Below are positions 8,863 to 43,958 of a stretch of 47,170 nt of DNA, piece after piece (the stretch's first letter is position 1; every line of letters starts with the position of its first letter). Source of the DNA: an uncultured bacterium (GTDB lineage: Bacteria > Bacillota > Clostridia > Lachnospirales > Lachnospiraceae); the NCBI GenBank assembly GCA_945949875.1, contig CAMFGH010000008.1, positions 1 to 47,170 on the forward strand, read 5' to 3'. The notes beneath the pieces are model-generated. The model was not told where the DNA came from. It ran no database searches and saw nothing but the letters and a program-made list of their open reading frames with translations. The translations under genes and the position numbers were made by a program.

Positions 8863-8949
8863 ATGAAACAGCGAAAACAAGAGTGGGTAACATGAAACAG
8901 CGAAAACAAGAGTGGATAACATGAAAAAGCGAAAGCAAGAGTGAGCAAA
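8863..8949 (+). repeat. 29-bp tandem repeat creating coupled minicistrons
   Basis: ATG codons at 8863, 8892, 8921 and 8950 are spaced exactly 29 bp apart; the last is the start of the downstream hydrolase. Each of the first three opens a tiny frame (MKQRKQEWVT, MKQRKQEWIT, MKKRKQE). The first two end in a TGA overlapping the next ATG as ATGA. Each unit carries an AAGAGTG-like sequence before the following ATG. Confidence 0.85.
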
Positions 8950-12194: not shown

Positions 12195-13096
12195 TTGAGA
12201 TAAAAGGAATATCGAAGTCTTTTGAAGAGATAAAGGCAGTAGATAATGTCAGTGTGACAATAAAAGAAGGAAATGTTTTTGGCCTGATCGGAACCAATGG
12301 AGCAGGAAAAAGTACGGTGCTTAGAATGGTAACAGGCGTATACAAACCGGATGAAGGTGTGATCACCATTGACGGACTTCCGGTGTTTGATAATGTGGAA
12401 GCAAAAAAGAAGTTTTTCTTTATACCGGATGAACCTTACTTTTTTAATCAGGCTAACAGCATAGAAATGGAACATTATTATTCCTCTGTTTATGAGGAGT
12501 TCAACGTGGAAGAGTTTTACAGCTTTCTGGAAAAATTCGGTTTGGACAAAAATCGTAAGATCAGAACATTTTCCAAAGGAATGAAAAAGCAGTTGGCTCT
12601 TCTTTTGGGAATCTGCTCAGGAACAAAGTATTTACTTTGTGATGAGACCTTTGACGGTCTGGACCCGGTGATGCGCCAGAGCGTAAAAGCACTTATGGCA
12701 AAGAAAATGGATGAACGGGGACTTACTCCCATCATTGCGTCCCACAATCTGCGGGAATTGGAAGACATTTGCGACCATGTAGGTCTTTTACATAAGGGCG
12801 GAGTCCTTCTTTCCAAAGATCTGGAAGATATGAAATGTAACATCCAGAAAATACAGTGTGTATTTACAGAGCCGGAGCAGAGAGACATCATTCTGCGTGA
12901 TCTGGAGATCATGAAAGAAGATATCCGGGGCTCTTTATGCACCTTAACAATACGTGGAACAAAAGAACTGGTAGAGGCAAAATTCGGTAGAGTCAGTACC
13001 GTATTCTTTGAGGCTTTACCACTTTCTCTGGAAGAAATATTTATTAGTGAAACGGAGGTTGCAGGATATGATATTAAAAAACTCATTCTGGACTAG
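12191..13096 (+). CDS. ABC transporter ATPase, YtrB type
   Basis: The 301-residue ATPase has Walker A GTNGAGKST (about residues 37-45), a signature variant FSKGMKKQL instead of LSGGQ, Walker B YLLCDETFDGLD, and the H-loop ASHNLRELEDIC. The SKGM-type signature is common in exporters of the YtrB/CcmA-like group that go with GntR regulators. It energises the permease encoded next, whose start overlaps it by 29 nt. In Bacillus the corresponding protein works with YtrC and YtrD. Confidence 0.88.
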   Translation: MIEIKGISKSFEEIKAVDNVSVTIKEGNVFGLIGTNGAGKSTVLRMVTGVYKPDEGVITIDGLPVFDNVEAKKKFFFIPDEPYFFNQANSIEMEHYYSSVYEEFNVEEFYSFLEKFGLDKNRKIRTFSKGMKKQLALLLGICSGTKYLLCDETFDGLDPVMRQSVKALMAKKMDERGLTPIIASHNLRELEDICDHVGLLHKGGVLLSKDLEDMKCNIQKIQCVFTEPEQRDIILRDLEIMKEDIRGSLCTLTIRGTKELVEAKFGRVSTVFFEALPLSLEEIFISETEVAGYDIKKLILD

Positions 13097-17565: not shown

Positions 17566-18904
17566 TTTACTGCGAATGAGCACTGCAAACCTGTTTAAAC
17601 GTAAGGTACGAACCATTTTGACCGTCCTTGGCGTTGTCATCGGTGTTGCGTCAATTGTGGTAATGGTGTCACTGGGTCTGGGACTGAATAAAGCGACAAT
17701 GGAATCGTTGCAGGATTATGCGAGCCTGACGGCGATTACGGTGACGCCACCTTATAATGCAGAGGGAAGCAGTGAAAAAGATAAAAAATTCCTGGATGAT
17801 AATCTGGTTCAGGAACTGGAAATGATTCCCCATGTTCAAACTGTTGATCCTTATCTGGATATTGACGTTCTGGCAAAATACGGAGTATATGAAGGCTATT
17901 TTACATTGCGTGGTATGCCGGTTCAGGCGTTTGACAGTATGAATATCGAGGTGGGTCAGGGGACACTTCCTCAGGAAGGTGCCGGTGAACTTCAGATTTT
18001 CTTTGGTAACCAGATTATTACAAATTTTTACAATGCAAAAACCTATGAGTATTATTGGGATACCGGTGTGCTTCCGGATGTGGATCTGATGAACGATTCT
18101 ATTTTCTATATTCTGGATCAGGAACGGTATTATCAGTCCCAAAGCGGATCCTCAAATGAAGAGGGCGGTGCTGTAAAAAAGGCAAAAAAGTACTTATTTA
18201 CAACATGTGGTATCGGCGCCGGAGATGAGAATACCTATAACAGTCACAGCTATAGTGCTTATTGTGACATCAATGAGCTGCTTCCTATTTTAAAGAAAGA
18301 GTTTAAAGGAAGAGCCATTCCGGGACAGCCTACAAACAGCAAGGGGAAACCTTATAAAGAGGTTTATTACTCCGGTTTGATTATCAACGTAGATGATATG
18401 AAAAACGTGGCTGATGTCACCCAGATGATAACGGATATGGGATATCAGGCCTATAATGATGCAGAGTGGATTGAGTCAGAACAGCAGACTCTGAATATGA
18501 TCGAAGCTGTTCTGGGTGGTATCGGAGCGGTCTCCCTGTTAGTAGCGGCAATCGGTATCACCAATACCATGATGATGTCAATTTATGAAAGAACAAAAGA
18601 AATCGGTATTATGAAGGTGCTGGGATGCGATATGAGAAATATCGGAGCATTGTTTTTACTGGAAGCAGGATGCATCGGTTTCTTTGGCGGAGTCGTGGGA
18701 CTGATTCTAAGCTACAGCATGTCCGGGGTGATCAATTATCTGGTTGCCAATTCCGGAATGGGAGTTGATACCATTTCCTATATTCCGTTCTGGCTTGCCG
18801 GTATGGCGCTTTTGTTTGCGATTCTGGTAGGTATGATCGCGGGATTTTTCCCGGCAAGACGTGCCATGAAATTAAGTCCGCTGGCAGCAATTCATAATGA
18901 ATAG
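17552..18904 (+). CDS. MacB/FtsX-type ABC permease (YtrF-like)
   Basis: A 450-residue permease with the MacB layout: first helix (VRTILTVLGVVIGVASIVVM) with the LLRMSTANLFKRKVRT amphipathic start, a long extracytoplasmic domain (about 55-310), then three C-terminal helices with the FtsX motif IGITNTMMMSIYERTKEIGI and the ending FFPARRAMKLSPLAAI. It does not carry substrate across the membrane through a channel in studied relatives but couples ATP hydrolysis to movements outside. Its partners are the MacB/LolD-type ATPase and the extracellular protein upstream. GGAGG precedes the ATG. Its stop codon lies at the left end of a palindromic element. Confidence 0.92.
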   Translation: MRIIDLLRMSTANLFKRKVRTILTVLGVVIGVASIVVMVSLGLGLNKATMESLQDYASLTAITVTPPYNAEGSSEKDKKFLDDNLVQELEMIPHVQTVDPYLDIDVLAKYGVYEGYFTLRGMPVQAFDSMNIEVGQGTLPQEGAGELQIFFGNQIITNFYNAKTYEYYWDTGVLPDVDLMNDSIFYILDQERYYQSQSGSSNEEGGAVKKAKKYLFTTCGIGAGDENTYNSHSYSAYCDINELLPILKKEFKGRAIPGQPTNSKGKPYKEVYYSGLIINVDDMKNVADVTQMITDMGYQAYNDAEWIESEQQTLNMIEAVLGGIGAVSLLVAAIGITNTMMMSIYERTKEIGIMKVLGCDMRNIGALFLLEAGCIGFFGGVVGLILSYSMSGVINYLVANSGMGVDTISYIPFWLAGMALLFAILVGMIAGFFPARRAMKLSPLAAIHNE

Positions 18905-19152
18905 TGGGGACGTTTCTTCTGTCCGTAGAATAGCCCTTTTGTCTATAGGAGTGTCCCCTGTCTTGTAGCAGGAGCAAAAGCCTGTTAAAAATAGTTCTAA
19001 TACAAAATGCACAAGATAAGCGCAAAATCATCCAGACAATCTTATCTTGTGCATTTTTCTGTTCAAGTTTTCGCAGTGGGCTTTTGTATGGTGCAAGACA
19101 GGGGACACTCCTTAAGACAAAAGGGCTATTCTACGGACAGAAGAAACGTCCC
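18904..19152. repeat. Palindromic element copy 1 (about 249 bp)
   Basis: The outer arms of about 60 bp (18907-18966 and 19092-19152) are near-perfect inverted copies beginning GGGACGTTTCTTCTGTCC. The inner stem is a perfect 17-bp pair (19004-19020 with 19041-19057, AAAATGCACAAGATAAG) around a 20-nt loop. The element follows the stop codon of the MacB-type permease gene directly and would fold into one long nested hairpin. It resembles a MITE or REP/RAYT-type non-autonomous element; no transposase is linked. Confidence 0.85.
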
Positions 19153-19162
19153 TGCCTCCCAG

Positions 19163-19191
19163 TTGATTTTTTTCGCGGTAATAGATATGAT
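19163..19191 (+). promoter_or_regulatory. Promoter of the NUDIX gene
   Basis: TTGATT (19163-19168) and TATGAT (19186-19191) are separated by 17 bp, 10 bp beyond the end of the palindromic element. Confidence 0.6.
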
Positions 19192-19245
19192 ATAGACTAT
19201 GTGGAAAAGATATTTTATATAAAAACGAGGAGATAATAGAAATCT

Positions 19246-19746
19246 ATGGAATTATGGGATATTTATGATGAACAAAAAAAGCCAACCGGTCGCGTCATGA
19301 AGAAAAATGACTGGCATATGAAACCGGATGAGTTTCATTTGACCGTGCTTGGAGTGATCAGAAGACCAGATCATACTTTTTTGATCACACAGCGCGTTAT
19401 GACAAAGGCCTGGGCACCGGGCTGGTGGGAAGTATCCGGCGGTGGCGTACAGGCTGGGGAAAGCTCGGAGCAGGCAGTAAGACGGGAACTGTTGGAAGAG
19501 ACCGGTCTGGATGTGGAATATGCCCCGGGTGGCTATCAATTTTCCTATAAAAGAGTAAATCCTGAAGAGGGAGATAACTACTTCGTGGATATCTATCGTT
19601 ACGATATGGATGTGACAGAGTCCGATGTAAAACTTCAGGAAGAAGAAACCATGGGATTTAAATTTGCAACCCCAGATGAAATCAAAGAATTAGCAGAACA
19701 GGGCATTTTCCTGCATTATGACAGTATTAAGCAGGTGTTTGAATAG
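19246..19746 (+). CDS. NUDIX hydrolase
   Basis: A 166-residue enzyme with a complete NUDIX box at about residues 66-88 (GGVQAGESSEQAVRREL followed by LEETGL), matching G-x5-E-x7-R-E-U-x-E-E-x-G-U. These enzymes cleave nucleoside diphosphates linked to another group, using Mg2+ held by the box glutamates. The N-terminal MELWDIYDEQKKPTGR and the DEFHLTVLGVI segment resemble the YfcD/IPP-isomerase-like subgroup. The substrate is not predictable. Its stop codon is contiguous with palindromic copy 2. GAGGAGA precedes the ATG. Confidence 0.9.
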   Translation: MELWDIYDEQKKPTGRVMKKNDWHMKPDEFHLTVLGVIRRPDHTFLITQRVMTKAWAPGWWEVSGGGVQAGESSEQAVRRELLEETGLDVEYAPGGYQFSYKRVNPEEGDNYFVDIYRYDMDVTESDVKLQEEETMGFKFATPDEIKELAEQGIFLHYDSIKQVFE

Positions 19747-20120
19747 TGGGGACGTTTCTTTTGTCCACAGAATAGCCCTTTTGTCCACAGGAGTGCCCCC
19801 TGTCTTGTGACAGGAGCAAAAGCTCTGTTAATAATAGTTCTAAAACAAAATGCACAGGATAAGATTGTCTGCATTCATTGCGCTGATCATTCCGATGAGC
19901 CTCAAAACAAAAATCGTGTTTAGCAAAGGCTTCCACGATTTTAGAGTCTCATCTCCATAGCGCAAAAATCATGAAGACAATCTTATCTTGTGTATTTTTT
20001 ATCCTGTTTTTCTAAGTGGGCTTTTTCTTCTGTAGCAAGACAGAGGGACACTCCTAGGGACAAAGGGCTATTCTATAGACAAAGGGCTATTCTGTGGACA
20101 AAAGGAACGTCCCCACTATA
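19744..20120. repeat. Palindromic element copy 2 (about 377 bp, fullest copy)
   Basis: The ends are inverted (ATAGTGGGGACGTT and its complement at 20107-20120). Arms pair through AGAATAGCCCTTTTGTCC; the right arm has an extra tandem copy of AAAGGGCTATTCT. An inner pair with core AAGATTGTCT continues through GCGCT and GATGAG to a central 9-bp stem AAAATCGTG/CACGATTTT (19910-19918 with 19934-19942). Nearly the whole element is one imperfect palindrome filling the gap between the NUDIX gene and the convergent hemolysin III gene. Confidence 0.85.
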
Positions 20121-20121
20121 C

Positions 20122-20769
20122 TTACGCCACATAAAAATACATAAAGATAAAGTGGCAGAAGCTTCCCACCATAACAAAAATATGGAAAATCTCGTGGGAG
20201 CCGAAGTATTTATGTTTGCTGTTAAACAAAGGCAGCTTTAAGGCATAGATGATTCCACCAATGGTATAAATGATGCCACCGCCAAGGAGCCAGAGAAAAG
20301 CTGCTCTTGGGAGGGTGAAAAACAGATCTCCAAATACCGGAATACATACCCAGCCCATAGAAATGTATATGATAGAAGAGAACCATTTTGGACAGGTGAT
20401 CCACAGAGCATTGATCAGAAATCCGACAATGGCGATTCCCCATACCAAAGCCAGCAGGTGATATCCTTTTGCTTTGTCCAGTATGATCATGCAGACAGGA
20501 GTATAGGAACCGGCTATCAGTACGAAAATCATCATATGGTCTATTTTTTGGAAAACCTTAAGTGCTTTCCCGGACAAATTGACACTGTGGTAGGTAGCAC
20601 TGGCACCATAGAGAACCACCATGCTAAAGACAAAAATAGTCATGGCAATCAGGCATGTGGTGCTGTTGAGGGCAGCTTTGACCAGAAGCGGAGAAGCAGC
20701 AAATAAAGTGATCATCATGGCAATAAAGTGTGTTATGGAACTGCCGGGTTCACGAATGGTAAGTTGCAT
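20122..20769 (-). CDS. Hemolysin III / PAQR-family membrane protein
   Basis: A 215-residue seven-helix protein. The conserved PAQR residues are visible: Ser and His in YGASATYHS, the Asp in KIDHMMIFVLIAGSYTP, and the two C-terminal histidines in HEIFHIFVMVGSFCH. These residues bind zinc in relatives, and the family may act as membrane hydrolases; haemolytic activity is known only for the founding member in a heterologous host. AAAGGAGG precedes the ATG on the minus strand. The stop lies within 2 bp of the palindromic element, which probably serves as its terminator. Confidence 0.92.
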   Translation of the reverse strand: MQLTIREPGSSITHFIAMMITLFAASPLLVKAALNSTTCLIAMTIFVFSMVVLYGASATYHSVNLSGKALKVFQKIDHMMIFVLIAGSYTPVCMIILDKAKGYHLLALVWGIAIVGFLINALWITCPKWFSSIIYISMGWVCIPVFGDLFFTLPRAAFLWLLGGGIIYTIGGIIYALKLPLFNSKHKYFGSHEIFHIFVMVGSFCHFIFMYFYVA

Positions 20770-21365
20770 AAAGAACGCCTCCTTTTAAACAAGTTTGTAT
20801 GATAAACTATTATGAAAACTTTTGTAGGAAAAAATACAAAATGAAGTACCAAAACCCATCATGTAGTAATAAAAACTATATATCGCATAACCAATACTAC
20901 ATCTAATGGTTTGCAATGTCAATATATTGAAAGGAAAATGGGATATGCGGAAGCAAAAGTTGAAAATACTGGAAGTGGAATAGAATATACCGGAAAGAAA
21001 ATAGAATATCTACTGAATGCGACTTTTGAAACAAGCATACATATATCCAATAAAAGATTACCGCTTGTAATATTCACTTCAGAAAGCGGCAGTAAAAGTA
21101 TACAAATCATCCTGGCTTTTAACCAGTTTTATACTTTGCATACTGCTTGGAATGATTCGAGATCTTTTTGGACAGTATTATTTCCCGGCTTAGGAGATAT
21201 TTGAAATCAAAATTAAAAATTGAACTTCAAATGCTACTGCCTACTTGAACTTATTCTGTGTCCGGCGGTAAATAGTTGCTCGACATGTGATTCGCATGGA
21301 AAAAGATACTGCTTGAAACTTCAAATATGCACTTAGGCAGTAACCAGCGCAAAAATGTTTTATCA
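20770..21365. other. Intergenic region without a supported gene
   Basis: About 600 bp separate hemolysin III from the solo repeat arm. It contains A-rich sequence, a weak open frame (see rejected items) and an inverted pair TACTGCCTA / TAGGCAGTA (near 21232 and 21335), each preceded by ACTTCAAAT. These may be remnants of another mobile repeat. I see no convincing gene or RNA. Confidence 0.5.
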
Positions 21366-21445
21366 GGATAAAAGGGCTATTCTGAGGACGGAAGGAACGT
21401 CCCCCATAGCATGTCAGGACGGAAGGAACGTCCCCATAGCATGCC
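21366..21445. repeat. Palindromic element copy 3 (solo arm with tandem duplication)
   Basis: GATAAAAGGGCTATTCTG followed by GAGGACGGAAGGAACGTCCC matches the right arm of copies 1 and 2. The terminal 30-31 bp (21385-21415 and 21416-21445) are duplicated in tandem, each ending CATAGCATG. No left arm is present. Confidence 0.75.
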
Positions 21446-21448
21446 TAT

Positions 21449-21484
21449 AAAAAAACCGCAGTCACTTAAATGACTGCGGTTTTC
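21449..21484 (-). terminator. Bidirectional terminator after tRNA-Trp
   Basis: The stem AAACCGCAGTCA / TGACTGCGGTTT has a 6-nt loop. On the minus strand it is followed by a T-run, suiting termination of the tRNA transcript. Confidence 0.85.
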
Positions 21485-21491
21485 TAATGAG

Positions 21492-21562
21492 CAGGGGCAG
21501 TAGGAATCGAACCCACATCGATGGTTTTGGAGACCACTGTTCTACCTTTGAACTATGCCCCT
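21492..21562 (-). tRNA. trnW: tRNA-Trp (anticodon CCA)
   Basis: The 71-nt cloverleaf is complete: acceptor AGGGGCA/TGCCCCT, D stem GTTC/GAAC, anticodon stem GTGGT/ACCAT with loop CTCCAAA, and T loop GGTTCGATTCC. The anticodon reads CCA, giving tryptophan. The 3' CCA is not encoded and must be added enzymatically. Confidence 0.95.
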
Positions 21563-43887: not shown

Positions 43888-43958
43888 AAAATGCACAGAG
43901 CAAGGTGTCGGCATTCCATTATGCTAAGTCAGTGCGACAATCTTATTCTGTGCATTTT
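43888..43958. repeat. Palindromic element copy 4 (core only) / terminator-like hairpin
   Basis: AAAATGCACAGA (43888-43899) pairs perfectly with TCTGTGCATTTT (43947-43958). GACAATCTTAT just before the right half is the same as in the cores of copies 1 and 2. The outer arms are absent. It lies between convergent genes and could end both transcripts. Confidence 0.7.

Follow-up and report, generated by a model that had tools for sequence, protein, structure and literature searches.

We analyzed two large nested palindromes in a 47,170-nucleotide stretch of DNA (here, the window; contig CAMFGH010000008.1 of GenBank assembly GCA_945949875.1) from an uncultured member of the Lachnospiraceae. The palindromes are probably composites of two nested, nonautonomous mobile elements: an outer element, A, that would move by means of a repetitive extragenic palindrome (REP)-associated tyrosine transposase (RAYT), and an inner element, B, that would be a miniature inverted-repeat transposable element (MITE), with the composite spread by the ends of A. 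A and B are separable sequence families.

Alignment of the arms within the window showed that both palindromes, copy 1 (positions 18905 to 19153) and copy 2 (19747 to 20115), are nearly complete, with self-complementarity of 94% over 64-nt arms and 90% over 48-nt arms. Folded as RNA, copy 1 has a predicted minimum free energy of -158.3 kcal/mol (z score, -19.6), which none of 200 shuffled sequences reached, and copy 2 has one of -196.2 kcal/mol (z score, -19.4; none of 100). The initial annotation had described both copies as almost entirely self-complementary and had noted that copy 2 keeps a central hairpin and inner arms that are absent from copy 1; both descriptions were confirmed. The left A arm of copy 1 (18905 to 18965, plus strand) comprises an end unit (18905 to 18924), a 20-nt unit (18925 to 18944), and a third unit (18945 to 18965), and it abuts the TAG stop codon (18902 to 18904) of an FtsX gene. 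Between it and the right A arm (19093 to 19153, minus strand) lies a deleted B element (18969 to 19090, ends approximate, plus strand), a AAAATGCACAAGATAAG..CTTATCTTGTGCATTTT shell that has lost its apical domain and gives no match to R1, a model of which copy 2 itself forms part. In copy 2, the left A arm (19747 to 19808, plus strand; end unit, 19747 to 19766; 20-nt unit, 19767 to 19786; third unit, 19787 to 19808) abuts the TAG stop codon (19744 to 19746) of a NUDIX gene, and the right A arm (20035 to 20115, minus strand) carries two 20-nt units and an end unit (20096 to 20115). The B element between these arms (19811 to 20031, ends approximate, plus strand) contains an apical domain (19876 to 19966, plus strand) consisting of P1, a CATTCC/TCCAT internal loop, a GATGAG/CTCATC helix, an inner helix, and an AGC-AAAG-GCT tip. 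R1 matches copy 2 at 19862 to 19982 with 126.3 bits.

The elements are dispersed through the genome to which the window belongs (2.76 Mb in 163 contigs, 86.8% complete). With up to 3 mismatches, the outer end GGGGACGTTTCTTTTGTCC gave 47 matches (23 + 24), compared with 1 + 0 for a reversed control, so the family is not confined to this locus. When 4 mismatches were allowed in the regions that we fetched, 51 A ends were found, 24 of which pair up, giving 12 complete elements between 88 and 550 bp long. An A arm starts with TGGGGACGTTTCTTTTGTCC, followed by one or more units of about 20 nt (AYAGRATAGCCCTTTTGTCC) and, in long forms, by a third unit (ATAGGAGTGTCCCCTGTCTTG). Inside the A arms lies a different palindrome with GCAAAAGCC and AAAATGCACARGATAAG, and six composites have the apical domain as well. 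Arms enclose a full core in copy 2, on contig C15, at C43:14553, on C78, and twice on C19; they enclose a deleted core in copy 1, at C86:6231, on C3, and at C43:11788, the last of which additionally lacks the right A arm. Arms alone form a hairpin of 88 to 89 bp at C19:9089 and C86:8874, and at C4:32190-32739 they surround a wholly different interior of 63-bp tandem repeats with ACAGTAAT and TTACTGT. Solo arms also occur, as does, judged by eye, a core without A arms on C12. A with B, A alone, A around another interior, and B without A arms are thus all present in one genome. At least one apparent core-only copy is a worn composite, since C28:26826 retains TGGGGAC.

The two arms of a copy resemble each other more closely than they resemble arms of other copies (0.883 versus 0.811 over the outer 60 nt; 9 of 20,000 permutations), and the same comparison over the outer 19 and 40 nt gave 56 and 218 of 20,000 permutations. 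The initial annotation had made co-change of arms a requirement for a maintained element family, and it is seen here as a modest effect that does not extend to every copy. Several copies fit a foreign right arm better than their own; for the C4 element and copy 2, this holds for most foreign right arms (for copy 2, 7 of 11 at 60 nt).

B extends well beyond this genome. A search of relatives, which the initial annotation had proposed, covered 397 genomes of the family, our own included, with at most two candidates scored per genome, so that the counts are lower bounds. At least 18 other genomes matched, and in at least 13 genomes from 11 other genera the match is the inner core; we left out the remaining 5 of the 18, whose matches span 24 to 34 nt. 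No credible A end was found at 20 B loci in these 13 genomes: the 71 kb of foreign B loci contain one match to the A end at 4 mismatches, which lies 1.4 kb from a B copy and lacks an A unit. At the foreign loci, the core caps a palindromic stem, for which an anchored alignment counts 25 to 94 pairs beyond the tip. Outside the tip, a locus's own right arm beats every arm from a foreign genus at 19 of the 20 loci, in a comparison that allowed own pairs a larger number of offsets than foreign ones and in which the arm-partner control failed at L255 (1 of 20) and was marginal at L260. The arms of B mostly differ between genera; by eye, the exceptions are AATTGCGA, present close to the end in both G135 and G215, and AAAAGCCC, common to G371 and our genome. 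We reject a single decaying family, as B is present in other genera on other arms. The initial annotation, which had seen one family in several degrees of decay with separable arm and core, was right about the separability, because arm and core seem to belong to distinct mobile elements, and right that deletion derivatives exist, but the copies are not a single decaying family.

The tip of B is conserved and covaries. We aligned 28 tip sequences (7 from our genome, 20 from the foreign loci, and 1 from MT840076.1), in which 20 of 28 pairs have changed on both sides. Pairing is retained in 94.9% of cells, compared with 82.8% in shuffled alignments and 35 to 48% in slid ones, and the covariation score is 0.391 versus 0.162 for shuffled alignments, with none of 500 shuffles as high. 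Because the copying of a palindrome could itself produce two-sided changes, this covariation shows that the fold has been kept and does not prove that it acts as RNA. As single-stranded DNA, three tips fold below all 200 of their shuffles (z scores, -4.3 to -5.7). In an Rfam 15 search of the window and 10 of the 20 foreign B loci, the tip was unmatched, and the only matches were to a tRNA and to one TwoAYGGAY RNA, which adjoins a B element at L260:1416-1581. A permissive scan of positions 19700 to 20160 gave only subthreshold matches, the best being to a microRNA family (43.6 of 211 bits). In the 350 kb of G215, R1 recovered 7 copies, including two that belong to the model; a 400-kb sample of G270 yielded a further 2 that were new, and scans of 343 kb and 444 kb from other loci yielded nothing. 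Six of its 7 matches in the fetched stretches of our own genome lie within A arms. The exact tip pattern had no match in viral contigs, and the core had none in plasmids. On these searches, together with one of viral contigs for the exact A pattern, spread by phages or plasmids was rejected, the sole phage match of the core, MT840076.1, reading as a bacterial scaffold. This record was deposited as a bacteriophage and carries B; by eye, its frames look bacterial and include a regulator, an integrase, and a toxin-antitoxin-like pair.

B in G215 is a MITE. All seven copies (274 to 334 bp) have sharp terminal inverted repeats resembling TAGGnAATTGCGAAAC..GTTTCGCAAnTACCTA and unrelated flanks, and six of the seven are flanked by direct repeats of 9 to 12 bp, three of them exact and three with one mismatch. 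Among 5040 pairings, the observed one alone scores as high. On contig C9 of the same genome, we noticed by eye a 60-bp form of B without a tip (L295:15351-15412) that has the 10-bp direct repeat TTTGTGAATA on both sides. Because this form carries a direct repeat, either the ends can be used without the tip or the tip was lost later.

We next consider what would move A. Three loci in our genome, with four matches, contain Y1_Tnp. One of them, on contig C22, encodes P0001 (E = 5.9e-14), a protein of the RAYT type with HIH and Y---NP motifs; H60, H62, Y119, N123, and P124 are invariant in P0001 and eight aligned relatives. P0001 scored 60.2 bits against NCBIfam REP_Tyr_transpos, for which the cutoff is 80; a possible C-terminal helix-turn-helix (HTH) matched HTH_38 below the cutoff (E = 0.031), and its best match among solved structures was weak (E = 0.26). 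As a query, it matched its own genome once only. Inverted A arms flank the gene, one at 8938 (plus strand) about 0.4 kb upstream and one at 12290 (minus strand) about 2 kb downstream. At the other Y1_Tnp loci, C63 and C78 (two overlapping matches), no A end with up to 4 mismatches was found in 4 kb and 2.5 kb. The initial annotation reported no transposase linked to the palindromes and proposed looking for one with the same ends. Its first statement was not contradicted within the window, but on another contig the RAYT gene lies between A arms, the downstream one past two genes, so the idea that there is no transposase was rejected. The MITE or RAYT/REP-type nature that it assigned to the palindromes was also right. 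A looks like the terminal repeats that accompany RAYT/TIRYT tyrosine transposases, and from this likeness and the flanking arms we infer that the C22 RAYT moves A.

Foreign RAYT loci have a similar arrangement. A RAYT match was present in 20 of 78 relatives, and we fetched 29 of the 39 foreign matches and looked for inverted repeats within 1 kb on either side, using 100 controls in which bases were shuffled within 50-nt windows. At 16 of the 29 loci, inverted repeats lie on both sides of the gene to an extent reached in none of the 100 shuffles; these repeats carry GGGAC or GTCCC at 12 of the 29 and GGGGAC or GTCCCC at 8. Palindromes of the form GGGGACG..CGTCCC are amplified (at least 3, and above the control) in 11 of the 78 relatives, and 7 of these 11 have a RAYT match, compared with 13 of the 67 others (Fisher p = 0.005). 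Among the matches listed, the inner sequence of these palindromes is species-specific in each amplified species. By eye, the foot before GGGGACGG is complementary to the inside of the end, clearly in G050 (GATACA/TGTATC) and G018 (GGAAC/GTTCC) partially in G017, and, on few elements, in G042 (3) and G044 (1). The foot before GGGG appeared species-specific in some relatives, a possible guide-target pairing.

Viral contigs yielded no match to the exact A pattern; the phage and plasmid searches covered the core but not A. A 16-base scan of a contig collection returned 105 stretches, roughly the number expected by chance by our own estimate (about 120); none of the 80 listed contains an A end at up to 3 mismatches, and the five inspected lie in unrelated sequence. 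A protein scan of the same collection found no relative of P0001; relatives exist by another search, so this is no evidence of absence, and both scans may omit our own genome.

A often stands behind a short motif. YAG precedes 27 of the 51 A ends, YAGT being the commonest foot (21 of 51), and G stands at -5 at 22 of 51, so the foot differs from that of GTAG-tagged REPs. Seven A ends immediately follow an in-frame TAG that closes a frame of at least 90 codons, and 19 of the 51 are no more than 40 nt away from the stop of a frame of this length, a count made without a chance control. All eight FtsX orthologues from the same genus end at the same residue (five with TAG and three with TAA), and in all eight genomes the A end is absent from the 400 nt that follow. 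The FtsX stop is ancestral in these orthologues; therefore, the TAG belongs to the target, and copy 1 is an insertion behind it. No clear orthologue of the NUDIX gene was found in the genus, and hence there is no second empty site.

Other pieces of both elements lie elsewhere in the window. The solo arm reported in the initial annotation is real at 21366 to 21404 (minus strand), and a second solo A end unit follows at 21416 to 21435 (minus strand). The form described there as core only (43888 to 43958, plus strand) is real as a AAAATGCACA..TGTGCATTTT shell without A arms, but it lacks the conserved apical domain and has no R1 match, which makes it a decayed or deleted B. Across positions 18905 to 21562, the NUDIX gene, an HlyIII gene, and pieces of the A family stand between FtsX and a tRNA-Trp-like sequence; in G002, the tRNA-Trp-like sequence directly follows FtsX.

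We propose the following history for the composites. A would be a hairpin of terminal repeats, similar to a REPIN; the C22 RAYT/TIRYT would cut and join its TGGGGACG ends, probably as single-stranded DNA, and A would land with one or both ends behind YAG, in several cases a TAG stop codon. B would be an independent MITE, a long hairpin whose folded tip is conserved; its terminal inverted repeats and 9- to 12-bp target duplications in G215 suggest a DDE-type transposase acting in trans. We infer both this class of transposase and the order of nesting, in which a copy of B would have entered the loop of the A hairpin in the lineage of our genome. A single entry is the most economical assumption because the composites share a junction. 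The A-B-A composite would then have multiplied through its A ends, with later deletions of the B tip giving rise to copy 1 and similar copies. A more speculative idea, which we put forward only tentatively, is that B represents a class of mobile palindrome in which the conserved folded tip, rather than the ends, is the heritable unit. Such a tip might change vehicles, with the fold kept and new arms acquired in part when flanking host DNA is copied by folding back; it could ride in a RAYT element, and a recombinase or replication protein might read it as a hairpin of single-stranded DNA.

Several observations weigh against this history. No movement was seen, and the empty site is a single one, taken from other species rather than strains. 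Target duplications were demonstrated in one genus only, where one of the seven copies has a weak one, and the 350 kb of G215 searched contained no autonomous partner of B. In G431, the flanks of B are inverted rather than direct repeats: on contig C34 (L259:1511-1808), the last codons, the stop, and the 3' region of a 432-amino-acid gene, the end of which looks SHOCT-like, are mirrored beyond B. This arrangement is not what simple transposition produces, and it suggests fold-back copying. Regarding A, two unrelated genes separate the C22 RAYT from the downstream arm, so the flanking may be partly chance, and under the test applied to the foreign loci this RAYT has no inverted repeat pair within 1 kb. 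The association between RAYT and amplified palindromes weakens to p = 0.043 when at least 5 copies are required; in G017, G047, G048, and G064, GGGGACG palindromes are amplified and RAYT gave no match, and no amplification is present in 13 genomes with a RAYT. Pairing of the foot with the inside of the end is weak in our own family.

Alternatively, B could be a structured regulatory or small RNA on a long hairpin transcript, with its dispersal secondary. The strong covariation and the conservation of the unpaired motifs CATTCC, TTC-AGC-AAAG-GCT-TC, and TCCAT fit this explanation, as does one tip column with 9 G-U pairs against 1 A-C. Over the whole tip, however, the G-U and A-C counts are 17 and 10, falling to 8 and 9 without that column, and the arm mismatches are balanced (84 G-U versus 90 A-C, a ratio taken without a control set), which points to pressure on DNA and not on a single RNA strand. 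We also counted by eye the open reading frames (100 codons or more) lying no farther than 250 nt from B at 21 foreign loci. On the left of B, a 3' gene end faces it 13 times and a 5' end 9 times; on the right, the counts are 11 and 7; because gene ends face B similarly on both sides, the tip has no fixed sense relative to its neighbors. Taking the target duplications in G215 into account as well, we consider the RNA explanation unlikely.

Immobile transcription terminators, extended under selection at gene ends, would explain why A ends lie near stop codons and why B adjoins more 3' than 5' gene ends (24 versus 16). They would not be expected to have the sharp ends and duplications seen in G215, to occur as similar copies at unrelated genes, or to be missing behind FtsX in the same genus, and we regard this explanation as improbable. 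We likewise disfavor, as having little chance of being correct, the view that A and B form one family whose outer part, the RAYT arms, was lost in genera without A. The enclosure of nearly all R1 matches in the fetched stretches of our genome by A arms agrees with that view; the 13 other genomes in which B sits on other arms without an A end, the A elements without B in our own genome, and the separate ends and duplications of B in G215 speak against it. In addition, the B-bearing genomes G020 and G033, the two of the 13 that the RAYT search covered, gave no RAYT match. Two nested elements remain the reading that we prefer.

In typical MITEs, conserved ends and arms surround a variable interior; B shows the reverse, keeping an interior folded tip across genera with arms and ends that mostly differ. 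The bcr1 repeat of the Bacillus cereus group is also a dispersed mobile repeat with a conserved fold, and by its description it differs from B in sequence and host group. In size (274 to 334 bp), terminal inverted repeats, target duplications, and copy number, B in G215 resembles bacterial MITEs as outlined for QMITE2, which has 7- to 9-bp repeats (PMC10969869); MITEs and stem-loop families have been described more widely (PMC10969869, PMC2267715). A shares with REPINs, in which an inverted doublet makes one hairpin (PMC3116915), that arrangement, a RAYT gene beside the same repeats, and co-changing arms, but it is much longer, has no GTAG tag, and places its end motif TGGGGACG behind YAG. Also similar are the TIRYT/TIRtron systems, which are summarized as having a Y1 transposase with HUH and Y---NP motifs, terminal inverted repeats with GGGGWSAS ends, and families that often occur as dimers elsewhere in the genome (PMC3733652, PMC6006769). 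The A end, GGGGACGT, departs from this pattern: GGGGAC fits the first six GGGGWSAS positions, and position 7 is G. Unlike TIRtrons as outlined there, A has arms of tandem 20-nt units, and its dimers enclose an apparent second mobile element and are up to about 370 bp long, or 550 bp when the interior is a different one. Most TIRYT belong to RAYT subclass 2.1 (PMC6006769), and the C-terminal HTH of this subclass is only hinted at in P0001. The portions of the literature on TIRtrons and RAYTs, REPINs, MITEs, and stem-loop families drawn on here contain no description of A or B.

An odd nested palindrome has thus been resolved into what look like two mobile elements. One of them, A, is probably tied to RAYT subclass 2.1, whose genes one survey reports to be without REP-like repeats nearby (PMC6006769). 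The other exposed a structured domain without an Rfam 15 match, a folded tip that is kept over 11 other genera as its stem and ends mostly change, and this raises the question of what reads the tip.

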